A stretch of 64,000 bases of DNA, taken from Heterotrichella gracilis (taxonomy: Eukaryota; Sar; Xanthophyceae; Tribonematales; Xanthonemataceae). The DNA lies in NCBI GenBank assembly GCA_032358255.1, contig JAULBX010031370.1, positions 310,001 through 374,000 on the forward strand, written 5' to 3'. The translations under genes were made by a program, and so were the position numbers. The notes below the pieces were generated by a model, which was not told where the DNA came from, did no database searches, and saw nothing but the letters and a program-made list of their open reading frames with translations. Below are positions 4,016 through 63,556 of the stretch, piece by piece; within the stretch, counting starts at the first letter, position 1, and every line of letters begins with the position of its first letter.

Positions 4016-6760
4016 TCACACGGGCGGCGCCTGGCAAACCACCCCATCCAAAATGCCCATGCCCTTTGAACAGTCGTGCAGCAGCTGGGAGGTTGCATCC
4101 GCCACAGCGGCGGGGAACTTGCGCGCAAACAGAGGGCACCAATAACCAAGCTTGGCCTCGCTCCTGTGAAAACGCCCATACCCCCCGCATCGCACAATCC
4201 TGCGCCCATCCCCTCTGCTTTTACAAATGCCCCCTCCGCCGCAGCCATTGCCGCCTGTACCATGCAGCTTTTGTCGCTGCGGCACTGCGCCGAGGGCCTC
4301 GGGCACCTCAGCATTTTCACGAAATCGGCATTGATTTCCGCTGGGATGTAGGAGCGGGGGTGGTAGGATGCCTTGGTGGGCCACACCACTAGGGTGGTCA
4401 TCTCGTTGCAGGCTGTCTCCTCCTCCATCCCTAGCAAGGCCAGGAGGGAGGGGACGTAGTGCTCGTTGGCAAAGCACCCGGCCTTCACGTGGCAGTGCTG
4501 CAAGAAGGCATGGATGATGACATCATCGTCCACCGCCACCTGGGTGCAGGGGGAGGGGAATGCAACTAACTTTCTAACCATGACCAGCTGTCTTGCTTTT
4601 ACATTTTGGGAAGCGCTGATCAGAGATGAATACCTGTGCATTTTCCGTGCCCGGCGCAAACCAAAGTTTTCCTTGATACAAATAATTAATACCTATAAAT
4701 GATCAACTTCTTTTAACACTTTTATACCTGTGCATGTTTCCTGTCCAGCGCAAACCAAAAACCTCCTTGATAAAAATAACTAATGCCTATATTTTACCGT
4801 AATAACTTATTTCAATATTTTAAATACCTGTGCGTGTTTTCTGTCCAGCGCAAACCACTCGGAGCTCTTTCGCCAGTGCTCACAAGTAAGGTTGTTGGAA
4901 GCCATGGCGTGGACCCATCGGTTCCTGTTCATCTCAGCGGGTGTATCCCTGCAAGAAGGGTGCATGTAGCCATTAGGGTTTAGGTTTGAGGGTTTGGGAG
5001 GGGCCCCCCATTGCTGTTGTACGGTGGTGGGTATGCATGGTTTTGGGTTTAGGGTTTAGGGTTTAGGAGCGGCGCCTGTGCATGGGTTGGCTACTTTCTG
5101 GATGAGGGCCGCACCGCTCTTGCATGCGCAAACAGGACACCATACGGACGAATTTGATGCCAGCAAATCACACAAAATGCTACTGAGTGCTTTGGCGCCA
5201 GACTTACTTGCACGCGTCGACCCTGCTGAGGGTGTCCCCGATCAGCTGCTGGTACACCACCAAGAGGGAGTATAAGGGGATGTGAGAGCTGGATAGGAGC
5301 ACAAACTTGGAGTTGCGGGGGTCCTTCAGTGCCTGGCGGATCAGGTGGCGGGTGGCCACTGACATGTTGAATTGGCCCCAGGGGGTGGGAACCCTGTGCG
5401 CTGCAGGGTCATACGGAATTTGTTGAGGGTTCAGGGACCAGGAGACATTGGTGGTGTCCAGAGTTCAGGGACTTGGGTTGCGGTTTCAAGCTTAGGGTTT
5501 ACCCCATGCGCTGCATGACGATATGCTGATGCTCCTGATTCAAGCAGGGCCCACGCGGCGTCAATGCGGGTCAAGTGCGATGGTCACGACGATCAAGGCA
5601 TAATTTTACAAACAGGTAGGCACTTGTGTCCTCCGGGGCCCCGCCCACACACCTACTTCCCTCCCAAAAAACACGCTGCTCCTGCAGTAGCCCTGGAAAT
5701 CCCCATCCGGGTGCATGTACACAGTGAACAGGTGCTGCTGATCCAGGATAGGGTTCACCATGCCCTGGCTAGGGTTTTGCACTTCCTTGCGAGGGGGTCT
5801 GGGCTGCCGCGCCCTACCGCACAGCCGCTTCGTTTTGCTTTGGAAGGCCATGAAGGCATCCGACCCGTTGTAACACCCGGCTTCTGCCACAGTCCAGGCG
5901 GGTCAAAAGCAATTGTATATGGAGACCGAAAGTAGTTGTGCATGAGGATCAAAAATCCGATGGGACAAGGAGAGGATGACGGTGCCCCCAAGACAACGTG
6001 CAGTGATGAATGAATGGGTCCAGAGTATAGATTTCTATCAGGTTTTGAGCGTTTAGGGTTTAGGGTTCAAGCTTTACCCTTGTGCGCTCTGAAACCACGT
6101 CCTCCACACCCTCCCCAGTGGCATAGGGTGCTGCACCAGCCACAAGAGGGCGATGGTGGGTATGGCCAGGTGCTCACCACAAGGGTCCGACTCGGGCCCT
6201 AAGATAGGGTTTGGGACGGGCTTGCAATCGCGCTGAGTTTGGGGCCTTTTGGTGTGTGTAGAGTGGTGGGTTGAGCCAGGTTGGGACGCTTGTGATGGGG
6301 TGTCTGCGAAGGTTAGAGTGCTGTGTAATTGTAGCCGTGGCTTGCCTTGTAAATGTGTGCGCCTGGTGGCGGTGGTGGTGGAAGGGGTCTCCCTACTGCT
6401 CGCCAGGCTGTGCACACACACACGCAGGTTTGAACACCCTCGAAAGTGGGTGTCAGCAGGCGACCGGTACAAGGACCTAGCAGCGATTGTGCCCAAGTGG
6501 CCTACTAGGGTACCCAGCAGTGGAAACAAGCTGAGCATTCCCCTCCCCACAAAGCAATTGCAAACAGCCAGTCCCATTGCTAGATGATTGTCATCTGGGG
6601 CCTCTAGATGCATGTGTACCGTGCTGCACTCTGTCGACTTTGAAGTACGTGCACTTACGTTGTTGGTTGGAAGTATACGGTGAGACACAGCAGTCCCAGG
6701 GACAGATGCCTTCTTGATGGGCCACTGGCGTCCATAGTGTTTGAACACAGCTGTCAGCAA
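4016..6760 (-). CDS. GT14 / core-2/I-branching (DUF266-type) glycosyltransferase
   Basis: Predicted Golgi type II glycosyltransferase of the plant DUF266/GT14 group. Exons in coding order: up to 6078 (encodes IALLWLVQHPMPLGRVW, the family block 'AFLFL..PLPL..lWe.F'); 5764-5657 (LFTVYMHPDG and SSVFFGR); possibly a small one near 5540-5500; 5400-5208 (TPWGQFNM, ALKDPRNSKFVLLSSS, IPLY); 4948-4828 (EMNRNRW, WRKSSEWFALDRKHAQ); 4539 to about 4225 or 4310 (VAVDDDV, CFANEHYVPSLLAL, the family's 'FANEHYvpT'); 4163-4016 (CPLFARKFPAAVADA, stop TGA). The conserved blocks follow the family order without a gap. The open frame runs upstream to an ATG at 6760 and includes a hydrophobic stretch that could be the anchor, but that N-terminus is a guess. 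The penultimate donor is ambiguous because two phases are possible. Confidence 0.82.
4628..4858 (-). repeat. Triplicated exon-3'-end/donor segment, period about 98-100 bp
   Basis: The real exon end (LDRKHAQ plus GT donor, near 4828) is followed in its own intron by two degenerate copies, at about 4722-4790 and 4628-4699. Each keeps the shared core ATACCTGTGCAT (plus-strand reading) and GCGCAAACCA, so each copy retains a plausible splice donor. Confidence 0.8.
5045..5067. repeat. Plant-type telomere-like repeat (TTTAGGG)3 in intron
   Basis: Three contiguous heptamers stand in the GT14 intron upstream, in coding direction, of the 4948-4828 exon. On the coding strand they read CCCTAAA. Another short tract stands at 6053-6068. 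Confidence 0.85.
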
Positions 6761-7598
6761 TCAGCCATGGGGTTGTGCAGTTCGAACCTCGGCCCTGCAC
6801 CTTCCTTCAGCGACCAGCAAGTGACCTAGCATTGTACGAATAGGAAATGAGTAGCAGCCGCTATGATCACCAGTGGTCGCGATCGCCGCAGCACCGCTAC
6901 CACTGTCGTTCTGCTAGCGCTAGCTGAAATCGTTTGTATGCAGGGGCCATGCCATACCATGCCAACGCAGGCTCAGGGTGTTATCCAGTTTATTTAAACA
7001 ACAAAGCAGTACTGTAGCAGGAAAAGGAACAAGGTTCAGCGGGTGGAAGCGCGCTGGTCAGAGTCTGGAGCCGAAACCGCCCAATCAGAAAGGTTTTTTT
7101 CAACTTTAACCTTCCTATCTAGCTGCTAGCTAGGGTGTTTGAACGCTAGACCCTAGTCGAGTGGGTAAATAGAGAGAGACATGTATTGGAGCTCTTTCTG
7201 AAACGATCATCGCACATTGGTATAGCGACTACACACTGTACACATGATGACTTTCTGAGATGATCGCACAGTGTGTAGTCGCTATACCTACATAAACCCT
7301 GCGAAGCTGCATTGCCAGTCCTTGAAGGACACAGAGTCTTGCATGCAGCTTCCATGCCAGTAGACAGCCAAGGTCATCTCATGCATTGCATCGCATCGCA
7401 AGGGGCTGTGTACTTCATCAGCATTGCCCACATTTTCCAAGCCGCATGTCCCAAAATCAATTAAGTTGTGGTCAATGACTAGAAAACGTGCTGCGCCCCC
7501 GCATCCTAAGCCACCACCACGTATCACAGATTTTCCCACTTCCAGTCCTTGGGCAAGTAGACCCCAAATGATTGCCTTCAACGCCCATCTTGTTGAGC
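6761..7598. other. Intergenic region between two minus-strand genes
   Basis: It should contain the promoter and 5' UTR of the GT14 gene and the 3' UTR of the fringe-like gene. No coding block is recognised. The notable content is the perfect 21-bp inverted repeat at 7219-7288. Confidence 0.5.
7219..7288. repeat. Perfect 21-bp inverted repeat (hairpin)
   Basis: The left arm 7219-7239 begins GGTATAGCGACTACACA. The right arm 7268-7288 is its exact reverse complement, across a 28-nt spacer. A near-direct repeat of CTTTCTGA..CGATC lies before the left arm and in the spacer. Confidence 0.9.
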
Positions 7599-15040: not shown

Positions 15041-18000
15041 CTACTGATCCTTACTCGCCTCCTCCCCATCATCCCGAGGCTTGCCCCCAAACTGCACCGA
15101 GTTGCCGTTCCAATACTGGTTGCGATCCGCGCCATCGCCATCCCCTGGCCCCTCCCCCTCCTCAGCGAGTGTGTCGTGTAGCATGTGCACATTGCCATCT
15201 GCCCCACCCCCCCGCTTGCGCAACCTGCTGCTGCTGGGCTCTGCTGAGGATGTACCCTCGCCTCCTGGCATGAGAAAACATCATTTAGGTAAGTACACTG
15301 ATTCCAGCACCAGGTTTGTACATGGAACTGCAGCCCTGCCTGTGCTGAACCCATTGCATGGAATGCATTGCAAGCATGCAAGTTTGCAGAAAGAATCAAT
15401 TTGGTTTGTGAATCAAACCTTGCACCTCAACGCTGACTACCCACATGGCAATAGTAATCTAATCTAGTTGACGCACCCCAACGCTGATCACCCACATGGC
15501 CATATACATACATTCCCACCAAACGGTAATCCAAGCGACGACCATATCACGTCTTCCTGTCACACTGCACCATGCTTCACGTCATACCTTCCAGCTGGTG
15601 TGCCTCCCCACGTTCCTCCTCGTCACTGACCCCACCTTCACCGCCCCCTGCTGCCCCACCACCACTCCACAGCCATGTCCAGGGGGCAGAGAGCATGCCC
15701 AACCACGTCCGCGCCTGGGAGTCGCCACCTGGAGCACAACAACAACACCATTTCAGCACATGTGGGCAGTAGTCATGACCACCGCTATTTCAGTCACATT
15801 ACCCCAACACCTACGCAGTTTCTTTTGCAACGGGGGCCCCTGCCGAGCACGTCAATTGCTGCAGCTTTGTTCATACAACTGAAGGTAATATACTTCCCAG
15901 GTGGCATGCCTCCACCATAGCCACTCGCCATGCACTCCTATTTTCCACAAGCAGCTGGCAGGTGCAAATACCCCCCTCCTCATACCAGCCGCTCCCCCCG
16001 CCTCCCATCTGGCACAGGCCCCAATGGCTGCAGCAGCAGGTGCAAGGGGGAAAGTAGCTTCAGCTAACCCAGGGTGTGGCCCATGTATCCCTTGCCAAAA
16101 AAAGCCAAAATTTTGACACAAGTACACCAATCCAGCACCCCACTCCCGCCATGCCCTCCCCACTTGCCCCCTCCCCTCCACACACCCCACCACTCCCCTC
16201 CCCATACCTGGCACAGGCCCCAGGGGTTGCAGCAGCAGGTGTGAGCGAGGGGGCAGCCCCAGCTCAGCCAGTGTGGCGCCCATGTCGGCCTCACCCAGAA
16301 CCCTCTTAGGGTACGGCACCACCAGGCAGTAGGGCACCCCGCTGTCTGTGCGGTGGGTGTCGATGTGGTGCCGCACCTCGGACAGGCTGGCGCCGGTGGA
16401 GAACTCGGCCCTGCAGGTTTAAGTAAGGGTTAGGGTTTGGCTGGTGATGCTATGCCGTACTTTGGGCAGGCAGGCGCGAGCGACCAACAGGGTTTGGGTT
16501 AGCGTAATATTTAGAGGAAACATAAGGCTTCTAAGCCTCCCGAAAGGGTGCGAATGCGATGCCGCGCTTTTCGCCCTACAGATCAGATTCAAGGTGGACG
16601 GTTAAATGTTAGATCATTCACCGCCAGCAATGCTAGGTAAGAGCATGACATGTGCTCTCAGGTCACAGGATAGGGTTGAAGTTAGGGTCAGCCCAACATC
16701 CCTCCACTCACCGCATGTGTTCCCCATTGGTCAGCCTGAACTGCATCAGGATGTGGCCAGGGGGCACAGCACCACCCGCCACCTCGCCGCCCCCTCTGCT
16801 GCCCGCCCCCTCAGGCCGCACTGACATTGGCTCAAACGCCTCGTCCTCCCCATCATACTCCCCTGCCTGTGCACTGGCTGAGGAGCGAGATGCCTCATCC
16901 TGATTGGCCGACGCAGATGCTGCCTTATCCTGAGTGGCTGATGTGGACGCTGGACTATCCCGCTTTGCTGACGTGGAAGCTGCTGAATCCTGGTTGGCTG
17001 AATCAAATTCTGCCTTTTTCTGATTGGGCAAAGTAGCGGGGGCCCCATCCCCAACCCCGCCAGGTGGCAGCGCGTCAGCCACTAGCACCCCAGCAGCCTG
17101 GCTCAGGGACTGAATACCCTTCCCTAGGGTTGCAGCCTGCAGCACCAGGGCGGCCGAGGGCGCCAGCTGGAGCTCCCCTAGGGTTTTGGTCAGGTCCTGG
17201 AGGGTGAAAACCCTCCTAGGGTACGTCTGGGCCAGGGTGTAGGGTTTCTTGCCATCTGTGCGTTGGATGTCCAGGTAGCGCACCACGATGCTGAGGGGGG
17301 TGGCCACCGGGAATTCAGCCCTGTTTGCAAGCGAACAAGCCAAATGGTCAGATATTGCAGGGTTTCAAAGGTACACACAGCGTGCAACATGCAGCACTTT
17401 ACCATCATTTAGATGCTGGGGTTGAAATACCCACATGAAATTGCGGCGCTGCGTAGGGGAGGTCTTGGAGGGCATGCACCATAATCAGGCACCATAATCC
17501 CTACATCAGCGTCCAAACCCTAAACCCTAAGATAGGGTCAGAAACCCCACCTGACGTATTCCCCATTGGTGAGCTTGACTTGCAGGTGCGCGTGGGTAGG
17601 GGGTGGAGGGGGCGGCGGAGGGGGCTGAGGTCTTTGTGCCTGCATTACAACAAGCATACCATAACGTCACCCCGCATGCCCCAACCCTAAACCTGAAACC
17701 CTTGACCTTGCATAATTCCAATGCCCGCCCTCACCAATGTCCCTCTTGCCCTTCATACAAAGTCCACTCCCTTGAGCCCCACCACCCCATCATACACACA
17801 CATGGGTACCCGCAACCTGGATGCCAATGGGTACCCTCAAACGGCATGCACCAACACCCCTTCTCCCCACACCCTACATACACCCATATCTACACTCGCA
17901 ACTTCCAACTGCACCCCGCCCTCCTCACACCCCGCACCGCGCCCACCTGTTTCTTCCCTGTGCCAGCGCCAGGCATTGGAGTGAGTGCCAGGTGGCAGCC

Positions 18001-20828: not shown

Positions 20829-21274
20829 ACTTCTTTCAGTGCATGGGAGCTTGTGTTGTGAATCACAGGGCGATCAGCTGTTGATTAGACTGGATCACCC
20901 GCCCAGATCAAAGTATGAGTCTATGCTCCCTGCTGCCTGTGGGTGTTCCTCCGGGGGTGCCTGCGTGAGCTTGCTATCATGTGATACGCCTGTGGGTGAA
21001 AACAAAACCCTTTTTGTGAGTCTCGTCGACCAATTCTTTGGCGCCACCGTACCCGTTTGCTGTGTTACCCACCACTCCCGGTTAACTGCTATATCGCATA
21101 CAGCAGCTGGGCTAAGTGAAAGGGTGCAACAAAAATATAGACTTGGCTGGAACCTCGTCCAGTGCAAGCTCACTCAGGCTTAAGTCTGGTTTCGTTTGGG
21201 CAATCGATTGCCATCGTGCCATTGCCTGGGTTGGGTAGTGTGCATCAGGGGGCGCAAGGCGGGCTGGTGTTGCA
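20829..21274. promoter_or_regulatory. Divergent promoter region (UBX gene / enoyl-CoA reductase)
   Basis: The start codon of the UBX gene (20828, minus) and of the enoyl-CoA reductase (21275, plus) face away from each other with 446 bp between. Both 5' UTRs and both promoters must sit here or in shared DNA. I see no clear TATA box. Confidence 0.6.
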
Positions 21275-25285: not shown

Positions 25286-25370
25286 TAAGCGGACAAGAAG
25301 GTTGTCTATTGGCTTTGCCTAGCTGCGTAGCTGTAACCCGTGACAGAGGTAGGAATTGCAAGACTAAAGT

Positions 25371-47900: not shown

Positions 47901-49931
47901 ACAAGCGGTGCGTGGCTGCGTGTGAGGTTTTGGGTTGTATTTTGTTTACTTTGGATTGATGGTTTGATGGTTTGTAGTTTCTCAATTTTACTGGCGCGCA
48001 GCTGACTGCAATGAAGGCTGACTACAACCCACGTAGCAAGTGTACTTGCTCACTAATCCATTGTAAGAGGGTGACAGACCGGAAATCCTTAGGCTATTTA
48101 TCGACCCCTTGTTGCACTCCTTGCAGCACCACCGAGTCAGACCTGCAGAACGTGATGGGAGCCATCAACGCCGCCACCATCTTCCTGGGCGCCCTGTACA
48201 GCATCAACGTGCAGCCGGTGGTGGCGGTGGAGCGGGCGGTGTTCTACAGGGAGAGGGCCGCCTACTACTACTCTGTCTTCCCCTTCGCACTCGCACAGGT
48301 ATGGTTCCCTTTAGAACTCTATTTCCTACAATCACAGCAAGGATGGATCCAGCCTTCACAGCTTTCCTCCTTGAGAGCTGGGGATTGCCCCAACGGCAAA
48401 TGGGATGGGTATTAATCCCATGTTAGTGACCTTCTGTGTGACCTTCCACAACAGGGCACCGTGGATCTGGCCTACCTACTGGTCCAGTCCATGGTAAACA
48501 CCTGCATCACCATTCTGGTGCATCAGCAGTCTTGAGTTAATTACAGCACTGGCGCCAAATCCCTGACATAAACTTTTTAAGAGAGGCTTCTCCATCGCCC
48601 AATCTGCAACTGTCTCCATGTGAGTATCCTGTGACACATTCAATTTATTTTTCCTTCCCACTAGGGCACCGTGGAGCTCCCCTACCTGCTGGTCCAGTCC
48701 CTTGTCTACGCGTGCATCACCTACTGGTGCATCGGCTTCGAGGCGGACGCTGGCAAGTTCTTCTGGTTCTGCCTCTTCCTGTTCATCACCCTGGACTTCT
48801 TCACCCACGTGGGCATCATGGCGGTCAACCTCACGCCCTCCGTGCAGATGAGCACCACGCTCATGACCACCACGCTGGGGACCTGGAACGTGTTCTCGGG
48901 GATCTACATCCCCAGGCCGGTACGTGGCGGGGATGCACTAGGAAATGTGGCCGGGATATGAAAAACGCAAAACGTGACATGTGAAGTTAAAAACGAACCA
49001 CCATCACCCTCAGAAATTGCCCAAATTTGGAGCTGCGTCTACCGCACATACTCTGATGAGATCCCACCTTCCCTGTTTTACTTGCCCTTGAATAATTCTA
49101 CAAGTTGTTTTCGACGAAAATATATATGATTAATTGAATTTCTCCCCAATTTTCCAAAATGCAAATTAATTTTAGTGCTCCCAACGAGCCGAATGGGTTA
49201 ACGGTAGTTGATAGCTTTTGTCAGAACCCAAACCCATTCCTGGTCAGCTGTTTCTATGGCTCGATCTACCTTTCGTTCGAATGCACGACTGCAATTGCCA
49301 CTCAGATCGACCCTGCGGAACGTTTCGCTAACGCATCTCGGTCGGCATTATGCACAGTTGTTATATGTGCGTTTTCGCAACCCAGCAAACTTTCTTGAAA
49401 ATGAGCGACAGTAAAATAATCTATAGAGTGCGTTACGCTGGTCGAAAACAACTATCAACTCGCCAAATCGCCTGAAAAGATGTGTAAAGTGTAAAATGTT
49501 TAATTTAAAATACTTCCTCTGGCGAAATTAAAATTCCAGAAATGTTTCCTTGAAAGAGGGCCAACTCGGAGTACAGGTACTTTAAAGTTGGCATTCCACT
49601 TATTCCTATTTCTACAACCTGTTCTCTCTTTGTATGTCTTATTGTTTGTTGCTCCCTGCAGCGCATCCGGGGATGGTGGATCTGGCTGTATTGGATTAAT
49701 CCCCTGTCCTACACCACCTACGGTCTCATAGCCAGCCAGCTGGGGGACGTCACCTCCCCAATCACACTGGCATCCGGGGCCACCCAGCCCATCAACCAGT
49801 ACATCCAGGACACCTTTGGTTTCAAGCACAGCTTCATCGGCTGGGCTGCCTTCATCATCATCGGCTTCTGCATCACCTTCAGGCTGGTGGCAGCCATCGG
49901 GCTCAAATTCCTCAATTTCCAAGCCAGATAA
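35978..49931 (+). CDS. Full-size PDR-type ABC transporter (ABCG subfamily)
   Basis: ATP-driven exporter of lipids or hydrophobic metabolites, arrangement NBD-TMD-NBD-TMD. Exons: 35978-36157, 36486-36658, 36966-37086, 37495-37674, 38036-38195, 38388-38464, 38836-38980, 39469-39614, 40094-40262, 40524-40689, 40974-41081, 41548-41671, 41932-42110, 42460-42620, 42957-43098, 43390-43501, 43817-44001, 44286-44415, 44817-44942, 45517-45713, 46169-46322, 46816-46925, 47145-47374, 47680-47907, 48127-48298, 48665-48919, 49662-49931 (TAA); about 1,465 residues. NBD1: Walker [12 protein letters not shown], signature ISGGQRKR, Walker [14 protein letters not shown], and LLQPPPE where Gln replaces the H-loop His, as usual in PDR NBD1. 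NBD2: [69 protein letters not shown], all canonical. Both TMDs include the PDR 'WW.W.YW..P..Y' blocks. Substrate unknown. Exon sums miss divisibility by two nt, so one border is slightly off. Confidence 0.93.
40883..40927. repeat. Perfect 18-bp inverted repeat in ABCG intron
   Basis: Arms TGTCAAGTGTGAGATTGC (40883-40900) and its exact reverse complement (40910-40927) flank a 9-nt loop, about 45 bp before the 40974 acceptor. Confidence 0.95.
41183..41262. repeat. Three tandem copies of a 26-27 bp repeat
   Basis: Units of ATGGTAGTAGTAACTTGTTA followed by CCCTTA occur three times in a row, the first copy slightly diverged, in the ABCG intron after 41081. Confidence 0.9.
41328..41370. repeat. 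Perfect 20-bp palindromic hairpin in ABCG intron
   Basis: The arms 41328-41347 (ATGGGGGATGCGGGACTAAG) and 41351-41370 are exact reverse complements with a 3-nt loop. Confidence 0.95.
42285..42459 (+). repeat. Two upstream echoes of ABCG exon 14 start
   Basis: The exon start (TTCTTCCTCAACTACGTCAC, CATGCTGCTCCTG) at 42460 occurs almost perfectly at 42370-42412, with its TGCATGCAG acceptor, and in decayed form at 42285-42323. Each is followed by CACATACACCCTAAACCC. Confidence 0.9.
43565..43625 (+). repeat. Echo of ABCG exon 16 end
   Basis: CTTCCACCTGCGCACAGT and the GTGAGGGCGCAAA stretch mirror the exon 16 end (CTTCCACCTGTGCACGGT) and the start of its intron (GTAAGGGCGCAAA). Confidence 0.8.
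44645..44760 (+). repeat. Two echoes of ABCG exon 19 start (Walker A exon)
   Basis: GGTCAGCTTGAGCTGCACAA followed by GGGCATAGG (44656-44684) and CTGCAGGTGGCCAGCTTG with GCTCATGGGG (44721-44751) resemble the start of the exon at 44817 (CTGCAGGTGGCCAGCTTGAG). Confidence 0.8.
45268..45482 (+). repeat. Three upstream echoes of ABCG exon 20 start
   Basis: Blocks at about 45270-45320, 45349-45400 and 45439-45495 repeat AGGTGGCAGG..CGAGGGCGA, GTGCGCATGAACGG and CCCCAAACCC, as found at the real exon start (45514-45560). The three copies grow more exact toward the exon. Confidence 0.88.
46072..46158 (+). repeat. Echo of ABCG exon 21 start with telomere-like tract
   Basis: CAGGTAATGGAGCCTGTTGA with CCTCTCCACCCTG (46073-46103) mimics the exon start CAGGTGATGGAGCTGGTTGA, followed by CCCTAAACCCTGAACCC repeats up to the real acceptor. 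Confidence 0.85.
46352..46551 (+). repeat. Two downstream echoes of ABCG exon 21 (Walker B exon)
   Basis: 46358-46442 is an almost exact copy of the exon's last 85 bp (GTGGAGCAGCGCAAG ... CCCACGTCAGG). A shorter, decayed one lies at about 46491-46551 (GAGCTGGCGGCAAACCC, GTGTTCATGGAC). Confidence 0.92.
46556..46622. repeat. Tandem duplication of a 31-33 bp unit
   Basis: CCCTAGGGATAGTGTAACCC and TATCCTATACC occur twice in a row (46558-46588, 46592-46622) inside the same ABCG intron. Confidence 0.9.
47527..47637 (+). repeat. Upstream echo of ABCG exon 24
   Basis: GGGACATGTAGGCCACCATC, GGCGCAGCTGCAGGA and GCTGCTCAAGACATACACCAC resemble GGGACGTGGAGGCCACCATC and later parts of the exon at 47680, with an in-frame TAG in the copy. 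Confidence 0.85.
48452..48525 (+). repeat. Upstream echo of ABCG exon 26
   Basis: CAGGGCACCGTGGATCTGGC, CTGGTCCAGTCCATGG and TGCATCACC..CTGGTGCAT copy the start of the exon at 48665 (AGGGCACCGTGGAGCTCCCC), about 210 bp upstream. Confidence 0.88.
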
Positions 49932-51397
49932 GGGGGCAAATCCTCCCCCGCCACTCGACTTCTTCACCCTTTGGATGCACCCCTTGGAGCCACTAGCATT
50001 CGGGTGATACCAAGGCGATCAACTAGGCAATTTCACACAACTTTGGGCTTCGAGAATGCCTTCATTGGCTGGGCGGCGTTCATCACCTTTGGGTTTTGCA
50101 TTGCTTTCAGGCTGATGGTAGCCATTCATTAATTCCTAATCCAGAAAGTGTGTTTCAATCTCTGATTTGAAGCTTGCAGCCAGATAGAGTGCATTTCAGG
50201 ATGCCTCAAGTATAATAACTACAGCATTATACCCCTCAAGACAACTTGTTTTTTTTGTCAAGCCAATTCGTGTACTTACCTGGCCACATCGCGGCAGGGC
50301 TACATTGTTCATTCGGGGCATCGTTGCTCATACTGTGCACAGTGACTGACTAGTTGAAGTGTTGTGCGTCATGAATCATGATGACTCATGATGATTATTG
50401 TTGATATCTGTTTTTCTTGATGATGGGTTATGGTCACTCACAGCTGATAGTGTGCATCAAGTGCTCTGCAAACCGCACTTGCGGGGCGGTAGCCATTAGT
50501 GGTACTGAGTATTCAGGCCCTGAGTCAGAGGGGGCAGTAATATGCTGGGGCTGGGCTAGCAGCGCTGGGGCTGGGGCTAGCAGCGCTGAAGGCTAAAATT
50601 TCTAGATATTCTGCCACTGTTTTTTAGTCCAGCCGTAATAGTATATGCGGATTTGGTATCCACTGTCAGCCATTTTATGTCCATGGCTTAGCCCACCAGC
50701 GCAGCCTGTTTTTCTGGTGTTGTTTGTGGTCTGGTTGTGCACTGTCATCCAGTGAAAGGCATACTCTCCTTGCAATCTGCTTTTACAAGCAGTGGCCAAC
50801 ATTTATGTTGGTGTTTCTTTATTAGTTGGTCGCAGATTTCTGGAGGATTAGTACAGTGCATTTAAGCTGACTGCATGCAACTCCAGCCGCTAAAGGCCTG
50901 CATTATCAGTGATAATATGTGGATGATAATCATTGGAAGTTGAACGGTTGAGGTCAATTTGCAACCAACCTCTGGGGTTGCCTGAACTGCATGCCTATGC
51001 CATGGCGCCCTGGGCCACAGGCAAGCACAGGTGCTGCACCCGCTCTCAAGCACCAGCTGTCAAATACGCGTCGGAGCAGATCAGCTGAGTCATCATCTGG
51101 AGTCATGGTATTTGTTGCTCACGTAGGGTCTTGCCTTGGCAGGCTGACCAATTGCCAAGGGTTTCTTGGAACCAAAGGAAAACCCTCGCAGGCCGCCTTC
51201 CCTGAAGCTTCAGCTCCGACTGACTCAGGGAGCAGCTTTACAGGCAAGCTATATTCAAACCCAAAGCAAAACCAACCGGAGCCAACAGCCTTTGCACCAG
51301 CCCAACCTCCTGTTTAACCAGGCTGTTGCAAAGGTCCCTTTTGAAGCGGATATTGTGGGCTAAACAACCTTCACAAACTTCACTCCAACAGATCACC
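49932..51397. other. Intergenic region with a pseudo-copy of the ABCG last exon
   Basis: No intact gene is seen between the ABCG stop and the next ATG. It contains the terminal-exon echo listed below, a duplicated GCTGGGGCTGG..CTAGCAGCGCTG pair (50543-50588), and the presumed promoter of the ATP-synthase-like gene. Confidence 0.5.
50036..50138 (+). pseudogene. Decayed copy of ABCG terminal exon in the 3' flank
   Basis: TTTGGGCTTCGAGAATGCCT, TCATTGGCTGGGC and TTTCAGGCTGATGGTAGCCAT parallel 49816-49893 ([24 protein letters not shown]) about 210 bp past the stop. The reading ends in TAA instead of the native C-terminus. Confidence 0.85.
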
Positions 51398-54300
51398 ATG
51401 TTGGCGAGTTCGAACGGTGTGCGAAAAGGTTGCCCTTTCCCGGCCGCACACCACGACCTGTTGTCCACAAAGCTTTGCAACGCCAACACTTTCGTTAGGC
51501 GGCAGACATGGCAGCATGTCAGGCGTCCTCGCCACCACAGCAGTGTTGCCAACTCGTCACAAAACGAGGAGCCGGACTGGGACGCAGAGATGCAGCTGTT
51601 AAAGAAAAGGACACTAAAACCCAACCAAACTGAGGCGCTTCGGCAGTTGGAGGCCCGAACCGATGTGGGGAAGGTGGGCCCACATGTCGTCTGCGCAGAC
51701 CATATGCATGCATATTGGTGGAGTTCAACCCAAGCAAGGTGTTCCCAGCCAGTTATCCCACATGGGTTTAGCATAATGTCGTCAGACGTCTGAAAAGTGG
51801 TATGTTGAGCAGCAGCTTGTCGCCAGAACCCCAGGGCTCAACACTCACACTCGTAGAACAGTGGCGTTCATATCACTCTGTTGAGCGTCGCCCTTGTCCC
51901 GCAGGTGCTTTTCTGCAGTGACAGCGTCGCCATAGTGGAGGGGATCAACAACGACGCGCAGGTTGGCACGCAACTGTCGTTTGTCAGCGGGGCAACAGGG
52001 TGAGAGCCAGTAACCTTGTTCCTCACGTTGCAATACCCTCGCTTCACCATACACCACCCGCCTACCCACCACCCATGCGCTCTTTCAAAAGCCTCTGTGG
52101 GATACAACAGAGTCGGTAAACGAGCAGTATGATACCCCGGGTAACAGCCCTTGTGCCAGTAGGCATGCCACTCCATTCCATGCACTGTGCTCACCTTTGG
52201 TTGGGTTGCAGCGTGCTGCTCTGGCGGAGGAGTGACAACATCTGCTTTGCGTTTGTTGCGGGGGGGAGCGACAAGCTGCAGGCTGGGGACGGGGTGGAGT
52301 GCAAGGTCAAGGGCATTCTGCAGGTGGGACATGCTTTAGATCTAGGGTTTGCTCTAGGGTTTCTGCTAGGGCATGAGGATTCCGCCACTGAAGGACAGGG
52401 TCAACTTTAAGCGCACTTAAACCCTACCCCCTGCACATTCAAAGCCTCTCAAATTACCCTCCATTCACCCACAACGCAGGTGGTAGACGAAAAGGAGGGG
52501 GCGGTGACCAAGCGAGAGTACGGGATCGGCACAGTGCCCGCGGGGGATGGCTTGAAGGGCCATGTGGTCGACTTCTTGGGTCGACCCTTGGGCTCCCAAC
52601 AGCAGCTGGGTGCGGAGGAGCAGGTGCCTCTGTTCAACACGCAGGCTGACATGGAGTCGAGGGAGCAGATCAACCAGCCGCTGCTGACGGCCGTGATGGT
52701 GCGTGGGCCTCTGAATATCATTCTGAGCAGAAAGATTTTCATTTAGCAAGGTGGCTTAGCGCCCCCTCAAATTATCGTCAAATTTGGCTACTGATAACAG
52801 GCTTGGCGTGGGGTGCGATGGTGGTGGCGGTTGAGTACGGATGGTGACACAGCTCCTGTGTTGTACCAAATGCACTGGCAGGCAATTTCATTCCCAGCAC
52901 TAGCGCACTCTACACAGTAAGTTCAGGGGCTCATCCAGGAAACTCGGGGGCTCACCTTTTACAGGAAATTATCGGCATTGAACCAATTTGGACTGACACC
53001 CCCATGGCGCACACCCATTTTCCCCTTCCCGTTTCTCTTTCAGGCCGTGGACGCCCTGACACCCCTTGGGCGGGGCCAGGCGCAGCTCCTGACTGGCAAC
53101 CCCGGGTCAGGCAAGACACAGCTAGCGGTGGATGTCATTCGGGGGCAAAAAGGGAGCGACGTGCGGGTGGTGTACGCTACAGTGGACCGGGAGCCCAAGG
53201 AGGTGGAGCAGATTGCACAGGTGGGGAATCCTAGCTTATAAACCCTAGATACCCTTAAGCTCGAGTTCTAAACCTTGAATCCTGTGGACTGGGAGCAAAG
53301 GAGGTGGATCAGATTGCACAGGTGGGGAACCCTACGTTCTAAAGCCTAGATACCCAAGTTCTGAACCCTAATGCCTGGGCTGGGGAAGGCGCAGCTGGCG
53401 GTGGCTGTCAGTGAGGGCAATAGGGGAGCGGCATGCAGAAGTGGAGCAGATTGCACAGGGGGGGTTTGCCTGGAGGGATTGGGTTTTTTAAAGCCTCCTC
53501 ATCTGCCACGGTAATGCCGCATGGCGCGGGTTAAGTAAAGCCAAGTTTCTTGCTGGTGAAGCAGCTCGGATGGATTTGGAAGGATGGAGTATTTTGGGTC
53601 TTCGGTGTAGGGGGTGCATGGTGGGGCAGGACTGCACCCCGAGTACTCAGAACCTCTTAATCTAGTTGTCCTGCGAGAATGCCGGTAATTAACCTCTCTT
53701 CACCTCCTTTTCAGGACTTGGCTGCTGAGGGTTGCATGGAGTACACCACCATTGTGTGTGCCCCCAAGGGCGCCCCGCTGGGGGAGCGATACGCAGCCAT
53801 GTGCGCAGCATGCTCAATTGCGGAGCGGGTGCGGGACCAAGGGGGGCACGCGCTGGTGGTTCTGGATGACATCAGCGCAATGGTGGGGTGAAATGGTGGG
53901 GTAAACCCCTTCGCCTTCAGCCGCAACACACCGGTGTCCCCAGATTGACATGTGGGATCGCATCACCATTGCATTGGCATTCCTGGGATCACAGGCAACT
54001 AGTCTGTAAATGTATTGCAATGGTCATGGACGCCATGAAGGTACAGGCTTACAGGGAAACATGCGGCCCCCAACAGTGGAACACTCAGCAAATCCTCTTT
54101 TAACCCACCCACCCCTGCGCCAGATCGACATGTGGGAGCGCATCACCGTGGCGCTGGCATCCCTGGGACCCCAGGCACTGGAGCTGGAGGAGGGCCAATT
54201 AGCTGGCAAATCTCCGGAGGAGCTGGTGGAATATGAGGGTATGCTGGTGACCTCGGCGGCTGCCCAGCGGCGCAGGTTTTTCTCCTCCCTGGTGCAGCGG

Positions 54301-56493
54301 GCAGCCAAGATGCACCGGCGGCTCAAGGGCGGGTCCATGTCGCTGCTGCTGGTGCTGCCAGGTGGGGGCCAGGAGTGTTTGCAGAGGGGTTGAGGGTTTT
54401 GAAGAGGACTATGATAGGGTTTTCAAGGGTTGTAGGTCCATGTCGCTGCTGCTGGTGCTGCCAGAAGGGGCAAGGTTGAGATTAAGGGTTTTTACGGGGT
54501 TTAGGATCCATGTCGCTGACGCTGGTGCTGCCAGGAGGGTTTTTTGGAGGGTTTTCAAGAGGTTTAGGGTCCATGTGGCCGGCGCTGGTGCTGGCAGGCG
54601 GGGACACGGCGACGGGAGTTCAAGCGCTGGAGTCTCATGTGCGGCAGTGGGTTTTCATGTAAGGCTGGCAGCACTGCTCGCCCCCGGTGTGATGCGCACT
54701 GCCTGGGGCAGGGTGACAGGTTGCAATCACCACCAATTTTCCACTACCACCCCACCCATGGTCCCCTCGCCCACACAACACCGCCTGACCCCTGCAGGCA
54801 TGCCTGCTTCCGGTGTGATGCGCACCGCCCGAGGCAAGGTTGCTGGCTACAAGCACCTGACTGCGGAGCAAAAGGAGAAGCTGCTGGGGGCGCTGGAGGG
54901 CGGCGAAGGGGGGGCGCAAGGGGCGCAGGGTGCCAGGGGCGTGCGCACGGAGGTGGGTGGGTGGGTGGGCAGGGGTGGGGGGTGTAGGAGGTCCTTATAT
55001 CCTCCACGATAAAAGTGCATGCTGGTTGCACAAGATTTTGCACTACACCTGCAGATCCCATCGGATGGTGTACTAGTAGAGGCGATGACTGTCCACTTTG
55101 TAGGTCACAAAAAGTCCACGCTGATGAGAACTTCTGCTGGACAAACACACACGATAGACAAACACAAGGCTCAGCTGCCTGTTGTAGGTCAATACTGCAT
55201 GTTCTAAATGCAGTGTTGCAATCCTAGAACTCAACCCCAACACCGAAACACATTTTTAAACCCTAAACACAGCCCCAAACCCTAAAAGCATTACCTTCAC
55301 CTTGTGCAGGTTATTGAGGAATTCATGTCCATTGCGGATGGCCAAATAGTGCTGGAGGACCGGGCGTCGCCCTCCGACCCCATCCGCATCAACCCCCAGC
55401 GGAGCATCTCGCGAATTGGTGGCAGGGCGCACTACCCCGCACAGGAGGAGGTGGCGGCGCAGGTGTGTGACACCTGGCTGTAGGGTTTACGGTGTGGGGT
55501 TTAGGGTTCAAGGTGTACTTTTGCGGCGGATGGGGACTCCACCGAGTGGCAATATACTGTAGGTCCATGACACCTGGCAAGGGTACCCAATGTTGCAATG
55601 CCTGGCCTGCACAGGAGGCGACGCGCAGGCTGCACCTGGCAATGCAGGTGTAGGGTTAATAGTGGGAGGGAAAATAATCCATGATTGGGACTGAGGTTTG
55701 TTTTCGATCCCCACCCGCAGGTGCGCCTGTCCCTGGCTCAGGCTGAGGACGCGGCCCGCTTTGCCTCTGACCCCAACGCCCCCTCGGTGCTGCGGGAGGT
55801 GCGGCGGGCGAGGGTGGTGGCGGCGGCGCTGGCACACACGCCTGGCAGGCTGCACAGCCTGGAGGAGCAGGTGGGTGGTGGAGGGGTGGGGTGTGGGTGT
55901 AGGGTGGGTGGTGGGTGGGGTGGGTGGGGTGGCTGGCTGGCGCACACACCGATTAGGCCTGGACAGCCTGGAGGAGCAGGTGGGTGGTGGGTGGGGTGAA
56001 TGGGGGCTGGCTGCACAGTCTTGAGGAGCAGGTGGGTGGTGGGTGGGTGTGGAGGGATGAGGTGGGCGGGTTTCAGGGGGAAGGCACACACCAGGCAGGC
56101 TGGGGGGGTGGTGTGGGTACCTCGCATACACATGCATGGTCGACCGTGCGCAAATTATGCATACACTTGACGCACATGCACAGGAATGGCGCCCCAACGG
56201 GAGCAAATTATATAGGCAAGAAATGCACAAAAATCAACACTTTTTAACCCATCCCACTCCTCCCGCCTTTGCAGGTGGCCAGCTTGTTCCTCCTAGGCCA
56301 GGGTTCCTTTGACGACACCCCCTTGGAGGCGGTGCCTGGGGCCCTGGCACATGCACTCCAATGCCTGGCGCAGCATGCCCCCGAGACGATGCAGGAGATT
56401 GCGCAGACCAAGCAGCTGACCGCGCAAAACCGCGTGGCGCTGGCGGGCGCCCTGGAGAGCAGCCGGCTGGCAGCTGCACAAGCCCTAAGTTAG
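51398..56493 (+). CDS. Divergent ATP synthase F1 alpha-like protein with organelle transit peptide
   Basis: Exons 51398-51673, 51905-51999, 52212-52323, 52480-52698, 53044-53220, 53715-53882, 54124-54361, 54798-54952, 55310-55462, 55721-55870, 56275-56493 (TAG) total 1,962 nt (653 residues), with every phase consistent. The first exon is Ser/Arg-rich, transit-peptide-like. Then come the alpha/beta N-barrel (DSVAIVEGINN, VVDFLGRPLG), the nucleotide domain (AVDALTPLGRGQAQLL, P-loop GNPGSGKT, where alpha usually has GDRxTGKT) and Walker B ALVVLDDIS. SISRIG keeps the Arg equivalent to the F1-alpha arginine finger, ahead of a helical C-domain. It is longer and much more divergent than plastid or mitochondrial alpha, and the PPGREA/HSRLLER block is not intact (RRFFSSLVQRAAK). 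It could be a specialised paralogue rather than the working subunit. Location (plastid or mitochondrion) unresolved. Confidence 0.85.
53284..53462 (+). repeat. Two downstream echoes of the P-loop exon
   Basis: 53287-53326 repeats the exon end (GGGAGC..AAGGAGGTGG..CAGATTGCACAGGTGGGGAA). 53386-53461 repeats GGCGCAGCTGGCGGTGG and GTGGAGCAGATTGCACAGG, also from the exon at 53044. Confidence 0.88.
53938..54000 (+). repeat. Upstream echo of exon 7 of the alpha-like gene
   Basis: CCAGATTGACATGTGGGATC, GCATCACCATTGCATTGGCAT and CCTGGGATC..CAGGCA mirror the exon start at 54124 (CCAGATCGACATGTGGGAGC), 183 bp upstream. Confidence 0.9.
54425..54600 (+). repeat. Three downstream echoes of exon 7 end
   Basis: Copies of TCCATGTCGCTGCTGCTGGT followed by GCTGCCAG at about 54436, 54509 and 54570 repeat the last 30 bp of exon 7 (54333-54361). 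The third is the most diverged. Spacing is about 60-75 bp. Confidence 0.92.
54668..54712 (+). repeat. Upstream echo of exon 8
   Basis: CCGGTGTGATGCGCACTGCC followed by GGGCAGGGTGACAGGTTGC copies the exon 8 segment at 54810-54845 (CCGGTGTGATGCGCACCGCC). Confidence 0.88.
55935..56050 (+). repeat. Two downstream echoes of exon 10 end and donor
   Basis: GACAGCCTGGAGGAGCAGGT plus GGGTGGTGGGT (55962-55992) and GCACAGTCTTGAGGAGCAGG (56014-56045) repeat the exon end GCACAGCCTGGAGGAGCAGG and its donor. Confidence 0.92.
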
Positions 56494-60026: not shown

Positions 60027-60698
60027 TGGTGGGGCCAGCTTTTCTTCTCGGGCGAGCCATGCGGGCTAGCTTGCTTGTTTGTTTCATGTCCCTGTCATGC
60101 TGCAAGCCCTCCTGCTAGGGATGCCAAAGTGGGTGGGTGTCACACCAAGAGGTAGCCCTGCTGGAGAGGTAAAGAGCCAAAATCAAAATAACGAACTGTA
60201 GAGTTTGCTTCCCCTCTCCTTTCTTTGTGGCATTCCACCTGGCCCGCTAAAAGAGTTTTGACCTTGAAGTTGAAAAAAAGTCCTCGTGGTTTTCCTAGTT
60301 CACTGCACGCAAAGCATGTTTTGTTGCAGTTGCTGTGTGAACGTTGCATGTTAACTACGCTGAGACGCGTCTCACTCGAAAGGTTGCAGTTGAAACACCT
60401 CTCTGGCGACTCAGATTCCCACCTGTAAAACACCGAGCCACCCCGCTTTGCAACTGGCCAACAGCGTGCAAGGCACTACACCGTACACTTTCTCCAAGCG
60501 TGTTGGTGCTCTGTCTGCCCGGATCCGCCTTTTGAACCTGTGCAGTCCCCATCTCTGTATCTTTGCATCAGTAACCACCTCCAGCCCACCTGGGGCCTTG
60601 AGGCAGGACCACACCACACGGGGGACCTTTCCAGCCACGCACACCAACACAACCAAGCGCAGCCTTGTACAAACCGCTGACCTCAGGCTACCGCTGAT
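60027..60698. other. Intergenic region between DTWD1 and GPATCH4-like genes
   Basis: It must hold the DTWD1 3' UTR and the next promoter. No coding block is recognised. A long minus-strand open frame (60411-60995) crosses it and runs antisense into the next gene, without support. Confidence 0.5.
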
Positions 60699-63327
60699 AT
60701 GAAGCTCCCGCACGGCTACGTGCCGGGGGAAGGCGTGAAGAAAGCCAGTGCCTATGGCGGCTTTGGGGAACGACTGCTGCGAAATATGGGTTGGGAGAAC
60801 GGCCAGGGACTGGGCAAGGACAATAACGGGATCACGGACGCAATAGTGGTCAAGATCAAGGAAGACACTGTTGGCGTGAGTACCTGACGCCTTGCTGCGG
60901 AGAAAATGTGTTATTATACCAGCGCATGCATGCATGCAGCCGTCAACATGTGTCTTATGCATGCACAGTGCAAAAGGTTTCCTAGCGGCGGCCACCTCAC
61001 TTGACTGACATCCAAGCGCAGTTCAAATTCTTTAACATACTAGATTACTCTGCAATGCGAGATTTTATCAAAATTATTTGCAGGTGGGCGGTGCAGCTGG
61101 GTACAAGTGGGAAGAGAAGTGGTGGGAGAACAACTTCAATTCCACGTTGAAGATCATAGGCGACCAGGTGAGGGTGGGCAAGCATGCACTCTTGTCACAA
61201 CCCACCTCCTCGCCCAGTCTTTGCAAGCTCTGAGATGCCCAAACCCTACCCGCATCCGGCTCCCCTCTCATCCCTTGACAAGCCCACCGCCACAACTGCA
61301 CACGCGCACACCACCCAGAACCTCTGGACGGAGTTTCAACTGTACCTTCTGGTACTCGTGTGACTCCAAACAGCTGTGGTGGCTGCAAACAGCCCAGACC
61401 CTAAACCCTAATCACACACACCTGGTTTTCGCCCCAGGCGCCTGCTGAAGCCTCCGACACAGACTCAGACTCCTCCGAGGATGAGTACATGGCCCGGGCC
61501 GCAGAGCACACCGCCGCGCCCCGCCCCTCCACCTCCAAGCCCGCCGGCGCCGCCCTGAACCGCGACGGGACGGTCGCCAGCGGCAACGCCGACGAGCTGC
61601 GCATCGCCGCTGACCTGGCAAAGGACCCCTGGGGCAGGTTTGGGGGGCGGGAGGGCAAGATGGCGCGCATCAGGCGCCAGGAGGAGCTCATGGCTGCCCA
61701 GGCGCGCACCAAGCTGCTGGGGCCGGGCGCGGTCCCCACAGATGCCGGCGGCGGGGCTGGGGCAGATGGAATTGTGGGGGCAGGGAACAAGGGGAAGCGC
61801 ACGCGGGGTGGTGCTGATGGTGGGGAGGGCAGGGATGGCGGGGGTGCGGCGGAGCAGGGCCAGTCCAAAAAGGCAAAGAAGGGCAAGGGGAAGGACGGGA
61901 AGAAGAAGCGGGGGGTTGACAGCAGCGACAGCATGGATTCTGACACCATTGCCTCACCCTCCCTCCGCCCGTCAGGCGATGCCGCACAGCCCTCAGCAGG
62001 AGCACAGCCCTCAGCAGCAGTGCCCCCCAAGCGCATCATCGTGGAGGTGGCAGTGGCTGCATCTAACGCCAACGCGCATGCGGACTTCGTTCCCCGGGGG
62101 CTGGATGGGTGGTGGGGCGCCAAGATGTTCCGCTCCTCGGGGCTGCTGGATGGCATGGAGAACACTGAGGACCAGCTGGCCAAGGAGCGGCAGACCTTCA
62201 ACGAGGATGACCAGGAGGCGCTGTACAACGCCACGCAGGACAAAAAGTCGTCTGGGCGCAAGGGGCTGGGCAGGGGGGTGAAGGCGCTAGGTGGGTTGGT
62301 GTGAGCTGGGTGGTAATGTGTGAGTCGGTGATGGCGTGATGGTGGACTGCAGATAGGGGATGTGTGGGTGTGCAGCTGGAGCTCACGCTCATTGAACGCT
62401 TCGGAGTGTGAGCGTGGTGTGTCTGTAGGCCGCGGTTTGTGTAGTCCTGCATGCCACTTTTCTACTTCACCACTTTGCCGCGTCACCCACATATATGTCA
62501 GCTGGGATTATAATTAAGCTTTGTCATCTACCAGCGCGTGGTTCCATCCACTACGGTTCATTGAGTATATGAAGAATCCATGAAATTTGTTTCATCATGC
62601 AGTGGGATTTTATCTAAGTTTTAATGGTGATGGGTTGGTGCTGATGTGCCTCACTGTACATGCAACAGGTACTGGAGAGGTGCGGGACGCTGGCTGGAAG
62701 GGGTCAAAAGTGGTGTTTGGAGAGGGGGGGGAGAAGGCGGGAGAGGGCACGCCAGCGCAAGACGGGGCAGCGGGTGAGACGGTTGTGAGCGTCAAATGGA
62801 AGAAGCTGATTGCCCAGGCGTTGGAACAGGTACACGCAGATGCATGTATGCCAATGCACAAATTTATTATCCCACAGAGAATTATACTGATTAACGCATT
62901 TTCATCTGTCTATTTATACAATACATTATTTTGCCAGTTGATGATGAACACATGCTGGCCAATCGCCAGCGGCGCGGACCCCAAGCAGGGTGCCAACGAA
63001 CGCGATGCACGCTGTCTCGCGTGGCCCCTTCTGCCCTGTTTTGTCTTAGACCCCTCCCCCACTGTATGGACCTGCCTTGACCTAAACCCTAAACCCTAAA
63101 GCTGCGCACACAGCTTGCACTGACCCACCCCACGCGCGCAGGCCGACCGCAACAAGCTGGCCCTCTCTATGCTCCACGAGAAGGTGGTCGCTGCGGCGCG
63201 GAAGAAGCACGGTCAGGCACTGACCATGAGCGTGGAGGAGATGCATGCTGTCATATCCGACAAGGTGCAGGGCAGCTCCCAGTTCATCCTCAAGGGGAGT
63301 AAAGTGCGCCTGTCCAGCGCAGCATAG
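60699..63327 (+). CDS. G-patch domain nucleolar protein, GPATCH4-like
   Basis: G-patch proteins activate DEAH/DHX helicases. GPATCH4 is nucleolar, linked to rRNA/snRNA modification. Exons 60699-60875, 61084-61167, 61438-62290, 62669-62829 and 63142-63327 (TAG) sum to 1,461 nt (486 residues), all phases consistent. The G-patch is at residues 20-62: GGFGERLLRNMGWENGQGLG, then NGITDAIVVKIKEDTVGVGG, followed by the GPATCH4-specific EKWWENNFNSTL. Next come an acidic Ser/Asp stretch (SDTDSDSSEDEYMA), a Lys-rich segment (KKAKKGKGKDGKKKRG) fit for nucleolar retention, the block FVPRGLDGWWGAKMFRSSG, and KWKKLIAQAL with a basic C-terminal helix. The start ATG lies 20 codons before the G-patch. Length is close to the animal protein (about 450). 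Confidence 0.9.
63081..63100. repeat. Telomere-like (CCCTAAA) tract before the last acceptor
   Basis: Three contiguous CCTAAAC-phase heptamers stand about 40 bp upstream of the acceptor of the final GPATCH4-like exon. Confidence 0.9.
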
Positions 63328-63414
63328 GAGGTCCCCGCCCACTTGACTGAGTGCTGAATCAGCGGCTTTCGGTTGCTGACCCAGGGCGATCTAGGACGGC
63401 CCCGTTACCTCATC

Positions 63415-63556
63415 AGCGGGGGAGAAACACGGCCAGGCGCTCGCATGACCCAGGAGGAGATGCATGCTGTCATCTCCCAAAAGGCGCAGGGCAGCTCCCA
63501 GTTCTTCCTCAACTAGCCAAGGGGAGCAGGGTGCGCCTGTCCAGCGCAGCGTAGTG
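63415..63556 (+). pseudogene. Decayed copy of GPATCH4-like terminal exon in the 3' flank
   Basis: GAGATGCATGCTGTCATCTC, AGGGCAGCTCCCAGTTC and GTGCGCCTGTCCAGCGCAGC repeat 63205-63325 of the real last exon, about 225 bp downstream. The copy has deletions and an internal TAG, so it cannot code. Confidence 0.92.

Follow-up and report, generated by a model that had tools for sequence, protein, structure and literature searches.

In mammalian cells, fill-in of staggered breaks by CST/Pol alpha-primase followed by end joining gives small tandem duplications (PMC8355091), and telomeric insertions at breaks in mammals are in some cases accompanied by duplication of the flanks (PMC2246262, PMC7215372). 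The intronic share of human interstitial telomeric sequences fits random placement. In potato, a duplication over an intron–exon boundary of RdRp turned exonic sequence into intron (PMC4974935), and in Daphnia the flanking direct repeats and inserted bases of gained introns were attributed to staggered-break repair (PMC3443670). Junction-crossing duplications have thus been described singly, and direct repeats are known at gained introns. Here we describe a 64-kb stretch of the genome of Heterotrichella gracilis (Xanthophyceae; assembly GCA_032358255.1, contig JAULBX010031370.1, positions 310,001 to 374,000; hereafter the window), in which degenerate partial copies of exon edges recur close to the exons themselves. 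An earlier note, made from the letters of the window alone, had drawn attention to these copies, which we call echoes.

Direct repeats at exon edges

The source assembly comprises 68.5 Mb in 903 contigs, and a comparison sample of 26 stretches, each up to 10 kb, was taken from other contigs. L001, L002 and L005 (GC.33–.35) and L018 (all N) were excluded from exon-based counts and included in the masked-BLAST sample count; the 22 sample loci kept for gene-based work (198,125 bases) give, with the window, 262,125 nuclear bases. Genes were modelled, without RNA evidence, by a two-strand hidden Markov model whose unsupervised training used the same DNA; it sometimes fuses neighbouring genes and sometimes calls echoes as exons.

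Unmasked self-BLAST of the window returned 44 direct repeats 15–1000 bp apart. When telomere-like and short-period repeats were masked (E ≤ 0.01, distance ≤ 400 bp), the window gave 35 direct pairs, against 0 in three dinucleotide shuffles and with 0 inverted, and the 26-locus sample gave 102 direct pairs, against 0 in three shuffles and with 1 inverted. Since the shuffles yielded no pairs at this threshold, a chance origin was rejected, the repeats being far more numerous than in shuffled sequence. An independent diagonal scan yielded 186 events in the real sequence, and 0, 2 and 1 when run on shuffles. These results confirm that the short-range direct repeats at exon edges are real.

Across the 262,125 bases we counted 141 short-range direct-repeat pairs, 37 of them in the window, although pair counts are not independent, as junctions are shared by several pairs. 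The repeats measure 27–140 bp (5–95%), with a median identity of 86% and a median spacing of 154 bp, in agreement with the sizes and distances given in the earlier note, and arrays reach three or four copies. Within the window the diagonal scan gave 57 events, in 44 of which one copy takes in 12 or more exonic bases, and 41 of the 44 are spaced 60–450 bp. These 44 fall in 6 of 7 gene models, 38 on plus-strand models and 6 on the single minus-strand model. The earlier note had reported at least eight genes on both strands; both strands are upheld, whereas the figure of eight is unconfirmed, with one of the models fusing two genes and the ABC transporter being split. An echo is borne by 116 of 992 predicted junctions. 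Echoes are genome-wide yet gene-specific: with respect to other genes of the genome they are present elsewhere, but 9 of the 22 sample loci contain none.

An apparent minimum spacing of 67 bp is most likely a BLAST near-diagonal artefact, by which a 26-bp array found by Tandem Repeats Finder was missed; our own diagonal scan recovers shorter spacings, in repeats that resemble ordinary minisatellites. The intronic 26-bp × 3 minisatellite at window positions 41176–41263 is an ordinary short tandem array.

We then located the repeats relative to exons, taking an event in the diagonal scan and in simulations as "edge" when one copy held at least 12 exonic bases. At spacings of 85–250 bp there were 97 edge, 19 intron-only, 8 exon–exon and 0 intergenic events; below 85 bp the corresponding counts were 11, 22, 5 and 4. 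Rotation of the gene models against the repeats gave 51 ± 6 junction-spanning pairs against the observed 97, a comparison later superseded by event simulations. The side, codon and contiguity tests excluded pairs exonic in both copies. One copy was wholly non-exonic in 71 pairs, 58 of them with a junction in or near the copy, and in 55 of these 58 the true exon lay on the expected side (32 right edges with the exon to the left of the echo and 23 left edges with it to the right; 3 exceptions). The real exon thus sits where an unchanged mRNA is expected, and the direct orientation and local spacing are likewise those of junction-spanning tandem duplication. Homology extends a median of 45 bp into exons of median 178 bp, its exon-side limit lying 19–103 bp (5–95%) from the junction in 73 cases. 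Its end falls most often 4–8 bp beyond the junction, and in 14 of the 73 cases the homology ends within the exon, over 20 bp short of the junction.

Pfam searches on six window pieces identified a Ppx/GppA phosphatase, a steroid-dehydrogenase/TECR-type reductase, an RSN1_TM/PHM7_cyt protein (presumably OSCA/TMEM63-like), an ABC transporter (which we take to be of PDR type), an ATP-synthase-alpha/beta-family gene and a DTW-domain gene. Of the two gene models between which the ABC transporter is divided, the first was scanned, and the RSN1_TM/PHM7_cyt gene is fused with the TECR-type reductase gene in one model with an internal stop. The echoes read in the window are as follows (strand in brackets).

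4629–4857 (−): direct repeat of 94–100 bp, right copy over a donor-side exon edge (predicted exon 4828–4948)
15973–16285 (−): exon-edge copy, 73% over 115 bp, spacing 200 bp
23380–23628 (+): TECR-like gene, exon tail and donor 23380–23440 with echo 23569–23628 at 92%; weaker third copy near 23809
30948–31434 (+): presumed OSCA/TMEM63-like gene, acceptor and exon start as three units of 198–202 bp, 89–93% identity
31437–31699 (+): exon segment 31437–31497, 87% echo 31639–31699 in the following intron
32229–32456 (+): donor-side edge with echo, 88% over 84 bp, spacing 145 bp; intron part with telomere-like words
32727–32859 (+): donor-side exon segment with echo, 88%, spacing 100 bp
33479–33684 (+): donor-side edge (exon end 33521) with echo, 86%, spacing 130 bp
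37070–37260 (+): ABC transporter gene, donor-side edge with echo, 80%, spacing 106 bp; TTTAGGG-like words in the intron part
42301–42503 (+): young acceptor-side duplication, 92–97%, period 84–91 bp; intron part CCCTAAA-rich
43460–43633 (+): donor-side edge (exon end 43501) with echo, 74%, spacing 113 bp; spacer CCCTAAA-like
44631–44844 (+): acceptor 44817 with two upstream echoes (from 44641 and 44713)
45239–45563 (+): acceptor 45517, upstream echo units at about 45254, 45334 and 45420; intron parts telomere-like
46041–46198 (+): acceptor 46169, echo 46041–46103; spacer CCCTAAA-like
46239–46562 (+): exon tail, donor 46323 (by eye), echoes 46358–46444 (97%) and 46500–46562 (83%)
47528–47805 (+): acceptor 47680, echo 47528–47571; exon segment 47778–47805 echoed at 47594–47621
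48442–48736 (+): acceptor 48665, echo 48442–48527, 81%, spacing 211 bp
49765–50125 (+): last coding exon, decayed 3′-flank copy 49991–50125, 72%
53110–53464 (+): ATP-synthase-alpha/beta-family gene, exon tail (end 53220) with echoes 53284–53355 and 53438–53464; segment 53110–53164 echoed at 53383
53940–54177 (+): acceptor 54124, echo 53940–53997, 84%, spacing 180 bp
54331–54603 (+): exon tail (end 54361), downstream echoes at about 54435, 54504 and 54567; spacer degenerate TTTAGGG-like
54684–54857 (+): exon segment 54810–54857, echo 54684–54731, 79%
55794–56052 (+): exon tail (end 55890), echoes 55906–55998 and 56005–56052
63196–63554 (+): exon segment with copy, 80% over 140 bp, spacing 220 bp

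In the array at 30948–31434 all three exon copies are open and similar, and it might be a true in-frame exon triplication, not dead echoes. Elsewhere in the window, the hexamer TGGCTG is repeated 15 times at 18900–18989, and the protein predicted from that model contains an (Ala-Thr)n tract; the predicted protein of gene 0 of sample locus L021 has a similar Ala-Thr tract. One sample gene matches a chloroplast-type heme oxygenase.

Neutral decay and telomere repeats

When 66 non-overlapping echoes were compared with their exons, mismatch at codon positions 1, 2 and 3 was.100,.116 and.190, as predicted for a freely mutating echo beside an exon that is free only at synonymous sites. The youngest class showed 13 synonymous and 15 nonsynonymous substitutions, 11 of 356 classified substitutions created stops (random expectation 3.2%), and 18 of 24 echo gaps were of 1 bp. 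The donors and acceptors said to be kept in the copies were indeed found, the splice dinucleotide being retained in 43 of 54 echoes, which is the neutral rate for about 11% divergence; up to 3 exonic bases in the echo were tolerated for this count and for the spacer-versus-outside and telomere-strand counts below. These patterns fit an echo that would be a decaying non-coding copy beside a constrained exon. Copies had been described as becoming more exact toward the real exon, and this was not the case: the nearer echo was the more identical in 8 of 18 multi-echo groups and the farther in 10, and in the array cited for the gradient (45270–45560) the 77-bp echo shows 79% identity and the 166-bp echo 81%.

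The association of the echoes with the telomere repeat is a point absent from the earlier note. Perfect CCCTAAA arrays lie among the first bases of several contigs, including C70, C140, C526, C609, C717, C770 and C824, among the places listed, so that TTTAGGG is very probably the telomere repeat of this organism. The two-unit word AAACCCTAAACC occurs 10,350 times in the genome, compared with 50 for its reversed letters, and its places listed (contigs C1–C3) fall inside contigs; interstitial telomeric motifs look like a major feature of this genome. The commonest intron 8-mer in the window and sample was AAACCCTA (109 occurrences), with other telomere-repeat words close behind and TGCATGCA in second place. 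The counts of TGCATGCA and ATGCATGC were 90 and 72, and those of their reversals 2 and 0.

Telomere 6-mers covered 14.67% of the intronic spacer separating the copies, 10.52% of intron within 100 bp outside a pair, and 3.65% of other intron, compared with 0.97% of exon and 1.76% of intergenic sequence; reversed control words covered 2.94% of the spacer and 2.0% of other intron. Among junctions with at least 7 bp of telomere sequence within 80 bp, 55 of 219 bore an echo, compared with 61 of 773 others (odds ratio 3.9, p 1e-10). Telomere words per 100 bp numbered 7.3 in the spacer and 4.2 in an equal length outside the echo, the two being correlated. TTTAGGG read outward from the exon at 29 of 36 distinct echo junctions, compared with 85 of 141 non-echo flanks (p.03). 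In the cleanest case (L009, position 2271), two copies of about 135 bp are separated by a 27-bp spacer ending in TTTAGGGTTTAGGGT, which is not present in the 30 bp beyond.

By locus, L003, L008, L009, L012, L013, L014 and L023 were rich in both echoes and telomeric words, L004, L006, L007, L019, L020, L022 and L024 were nearly free of both, and L025 was rich in telomeric sequence and poor in echoes. L003, L008 and L023 resemble SNF2-type helicases by eye. Pairing of intron ends through inverted telomeric repeats was rejected, because same-orientation pairs co-occur most strongly; the opposite G-5′/C-3′ pair was weakly associated (odds ratio 2.6, p.016), at the stricter threshold only.

Two further origins were also rejected. 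An introner or transposable-element family is not a general source of the spacers, which are mostly unrelated across loci: 7 of 110 spacers of at least 40 bp matched another sampled stretch at E ≤ 1e-3 (over 25–51 bp, four of them to one L016 stretch), and 6 inter-locus matches at E ≤ 1e-6 occurred in 262 kb of masked sequence. Matches in L009, L012 and L014, in spacers or flanks, mark the segment L016 4426–4519 as a minor dispersed repeat. The earlier note had also suggested that echoes could be relics of intron creation by duplication of exonic AGGT. By predicted introns, 27 distinct pairs of the 141 (30 pair-intron rows) place their two copies over the opposite ends of a single intron, many such layouts arising where the predictor calls an echo an exon. 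Spacing and intron length agree to within 3 bp in only 1 of these pairs, L012 8302, which lies next to a predicted exon of 3 bp. The layout and spacing that this origin calls for were thus found in a single pair of 141.

Explanations for the echoes

Taking the repeats, their side and spacing, their neutral decay, the exon-edge excess and the telomere association as observed, we tentatively favour, at somewhat less than an even chance, the reading that an echo is the scar of local repair duplication of a staggered break near a splice junction, often with telomeric or other filler, kept because it is spliced out. A break with staggered ends would occur within about 100 bp of an exon–intron junction, and the ends would be filled in and then joined, duplicating the region between the cuts. 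In this way 25–140 bp at the junction would be copied in direct orientation, with a median of 45 bp of exon, mostly with the splice site and sometimes with much more intron. Filler DNA would often be placed between the copies, frequently the organism's own telomere repeat, tending to read TTTAGGG 5′ to 3′ away from the exon. Because the splice site of the intact exon stays in place, splicing would discard the additional copy together with the filler as part of a longer intron; the lengthening of introns by echoes, proposed earlier, is supported. The echo, freed from constraint, would then decay as neutral DNA, and repeated events would build multi-copy arrays. A focus on exon edges might arise if the strand leaving the exon at either splice site, being G-rich, were a good telomerase primer. 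We infer the breaks, the fill-in and joining, telomerase as filler source, splicing as the filter, and the combination of both pathways.

Several observations weigh against this reading. About a quarter of the pairs are clear contiguous tandem units. The outward strand bias is weak relative to non-echo introns (donors alone p.07, acceptors alone p.37). Telomeric sequence lies on both sides in 25 of 65 pairs, in the spacer only in 12 and beyond the echo only in 6, and the two-sided pattern fits a tract that was already in place and was then duplicated. Although spacers are enriched fourfold, as expected if the telomere repeat entered at the insertion point, a clear telomeric spacer is missing at 22 of the 58 distinct echo junctions (fewer than 3 words, or a tie), and L010 and L026 have several echoes with little telomeric sequence. 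The preference for exon edges over intron interiors and for certain genes is left unaccounted for by repair. In the horse, duplication was the sole change at 3 of 66 telomeric-insertion loci (~5%) (PMC7215372), a rarity in mammals that points the same way.

It is possible, though improbable, that in particular genes of this lineage the exon–intron junctions break again and again and are healed through the telomere machinery, with telomerase adding TTTAGGG to the exon-bearing end before fill-in and joining. If so, telomere maintenance enzymes would be among the chief agents of intron growth, and splicing would let the scars be inherited at no cost.

A plain tandem duplication that spans the splice junction and then decays neutrally, with edges standing out since the constrained exon copy slows pair divergence, is in our judgement also unlikely as the general origin. 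The codon pattern is neutral, as it predicts. In 57 testable pairs the homologous intron part was clear in 15 (z > 4), 18 (z > 3) or 22 (z > 2.5), aligning along the unit, and unrecognisable in 33 (z < 2), whereas simulated plain duplications with a constrained exon gave z > 4 in 258 of 364 to 352 of 366 (71–96%). Whole-unit head-to-tail repetition, with length equal to spacing, is therefore clear in 15 of 57 pairs only, and of the tandem duplication and decay first proposed, junction duplication and neutral decay hold while plain duplication of whole units does not. Ungapped mismatch rises from about.12 in the exon part to.40 at 6–10 bp into the intron. For the 15 contiguous pairs, the intron:exon mismatch ratio of 2.43 (bootstrap 95% 1.70–3.77) overlaps the simulated neutral 1.4–1.8; as it is not clearly beyond neutral, plain tandem duplication may be a full account of this contiguous quarter.

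Where the events lie is less easily explained by plain duplication. Simulated random silent duplications, which carry free parameters (indel rate, age range), gave edge, intron-only and intergenic events in ratios of 431:286:101 to 177:106:39 (shares of 53–55%, 33–35% and 11–12%), against the observed 97:19:0. Young pairs (identity at least 92%) numbered 29 edge, 1 intron-only and 0 intergenic, against 66:45:16 to 38:26:13 simulated; silent-only survivor simulations predict 38–66, 26–45 and 8–16. Young pairs span a median of.34 of the spacing, compared with.96 and.70 in simulations, or.36 only at 0.8 indels per substitution. Shortening the introns of 14 echo-rich models by collapsing their echoes still predicted 60% edge (positions only, no detection step), against 93 of 104 observed, and the exon-side limit of homology clusters near the junction and is not spread over the exon. 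These findings indicate that plain tandem duplication alone is an incomplete explanation, exon edges being over-represented.

A doubtful alternative is that pre-existing telomere-like tracts beside splice sites act as duplication hotspots through fork stalling or slippage, and that gene conversion by the exon keeps the echo's exon part young while its intron part drifts. Telomeric sequence does flank real and echo junctions alike (14–16% and 14% of the first 30 bp), and at L009 2271 mismatches rise abruptly from about 2/96 to about 10/36 within the homologous intron (counted by eye), as might be seen at the end of a conversion tract. Eight contiguous pairs (z > 4) combine 92–100% exon identity with 69–84% intron identity. 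However, telomeric sequence is missing from many spacers, and conversion would be expected to affect equally the intron-only pairs, of which there are few.

Functional alternative or decoy exons or splice sites are very improbable, and echoes as working exons were rejected: some do have acceptor-like and donor-like edges or are called exons by the predictor, but codon positions 1 and 2 mismatch similarly, frameshifts and stops occur at random rates, and splice dinucleotides are lost at the neutral rate. Equally remote is an assembly artefact that set alleles, two strains or overlapping contig ends side by side, for which the presence of a foreign contig might speak, but against which stand a youngest class unlike two working alleles in its substitutions (whereby stacked alleles were rejected), a decay graded from 100% to below 75%, the existence of three- and four-copy arrays, and the fact that two tested gene regions each had a single full-length match (one test scoring 40 of 79 candidates). 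That contig, C1 (894 kb, GC.33; source of L001 and L002), has dense open reading frames resembling histidine kinases and response regulators by eye and reads as a bacterial contaminant or symbiont, presumably of Bacteroidota. L005 (contig C100, GC.35) resembles it in composition.

Comparison with described systems

The component processes are known, and the junction focus, density and telomere link of the echoes are new to us; neither junction echoes at such density nor the telomere link was found in the open-access full-text literature, among the matches listed, a scope that leaves most subscription papers outside. In one compact genome the echoes document small duplications in great density, nearly invisible to selection since splicing hides them. 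They make testable the lengthening of introns, the origin of cryptic splice sites, and any role of telomerase and fill-in enzymes at internal genic breaks.

The echoes resemble CST/Pol alpha-primase duplications (PMC8355091) in being direct, local and presumably left by repair; here they lie at splice junctions, recur within an intron and often have a non-homologous or telomeric spacer, and the mechanism would be the inferred one set out above. They share with interstitial telomeric sequences (PMC2246262, PMC7215372) internal telomere repeats and, in some cases, duplicated flanks of the kind ascribed to staggered breaks, whereas here both the telomeric sequence and the duplications are concentrated in introns beside splice sites. 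As in potato RdRp (PMC4974935), a duplication crosses the junction and exonic sequence becomes intron; there a new intron arose, while here existing introns grow longer, coding sequence is apparently unchanged and many junctions per gene are involved. The direct repeats and inserted bases of Daphnia intron gain (PMC3443670), likewise read as staggered-break repair, are short and flank gained introns, whereas those described here are 25–140 bp long, sit at one junction and lengthen an intron already there. Tandem exon duplication also repeats exonic sequence within a gene, but here mostly exon edges alone are repeated and the copies look dead.

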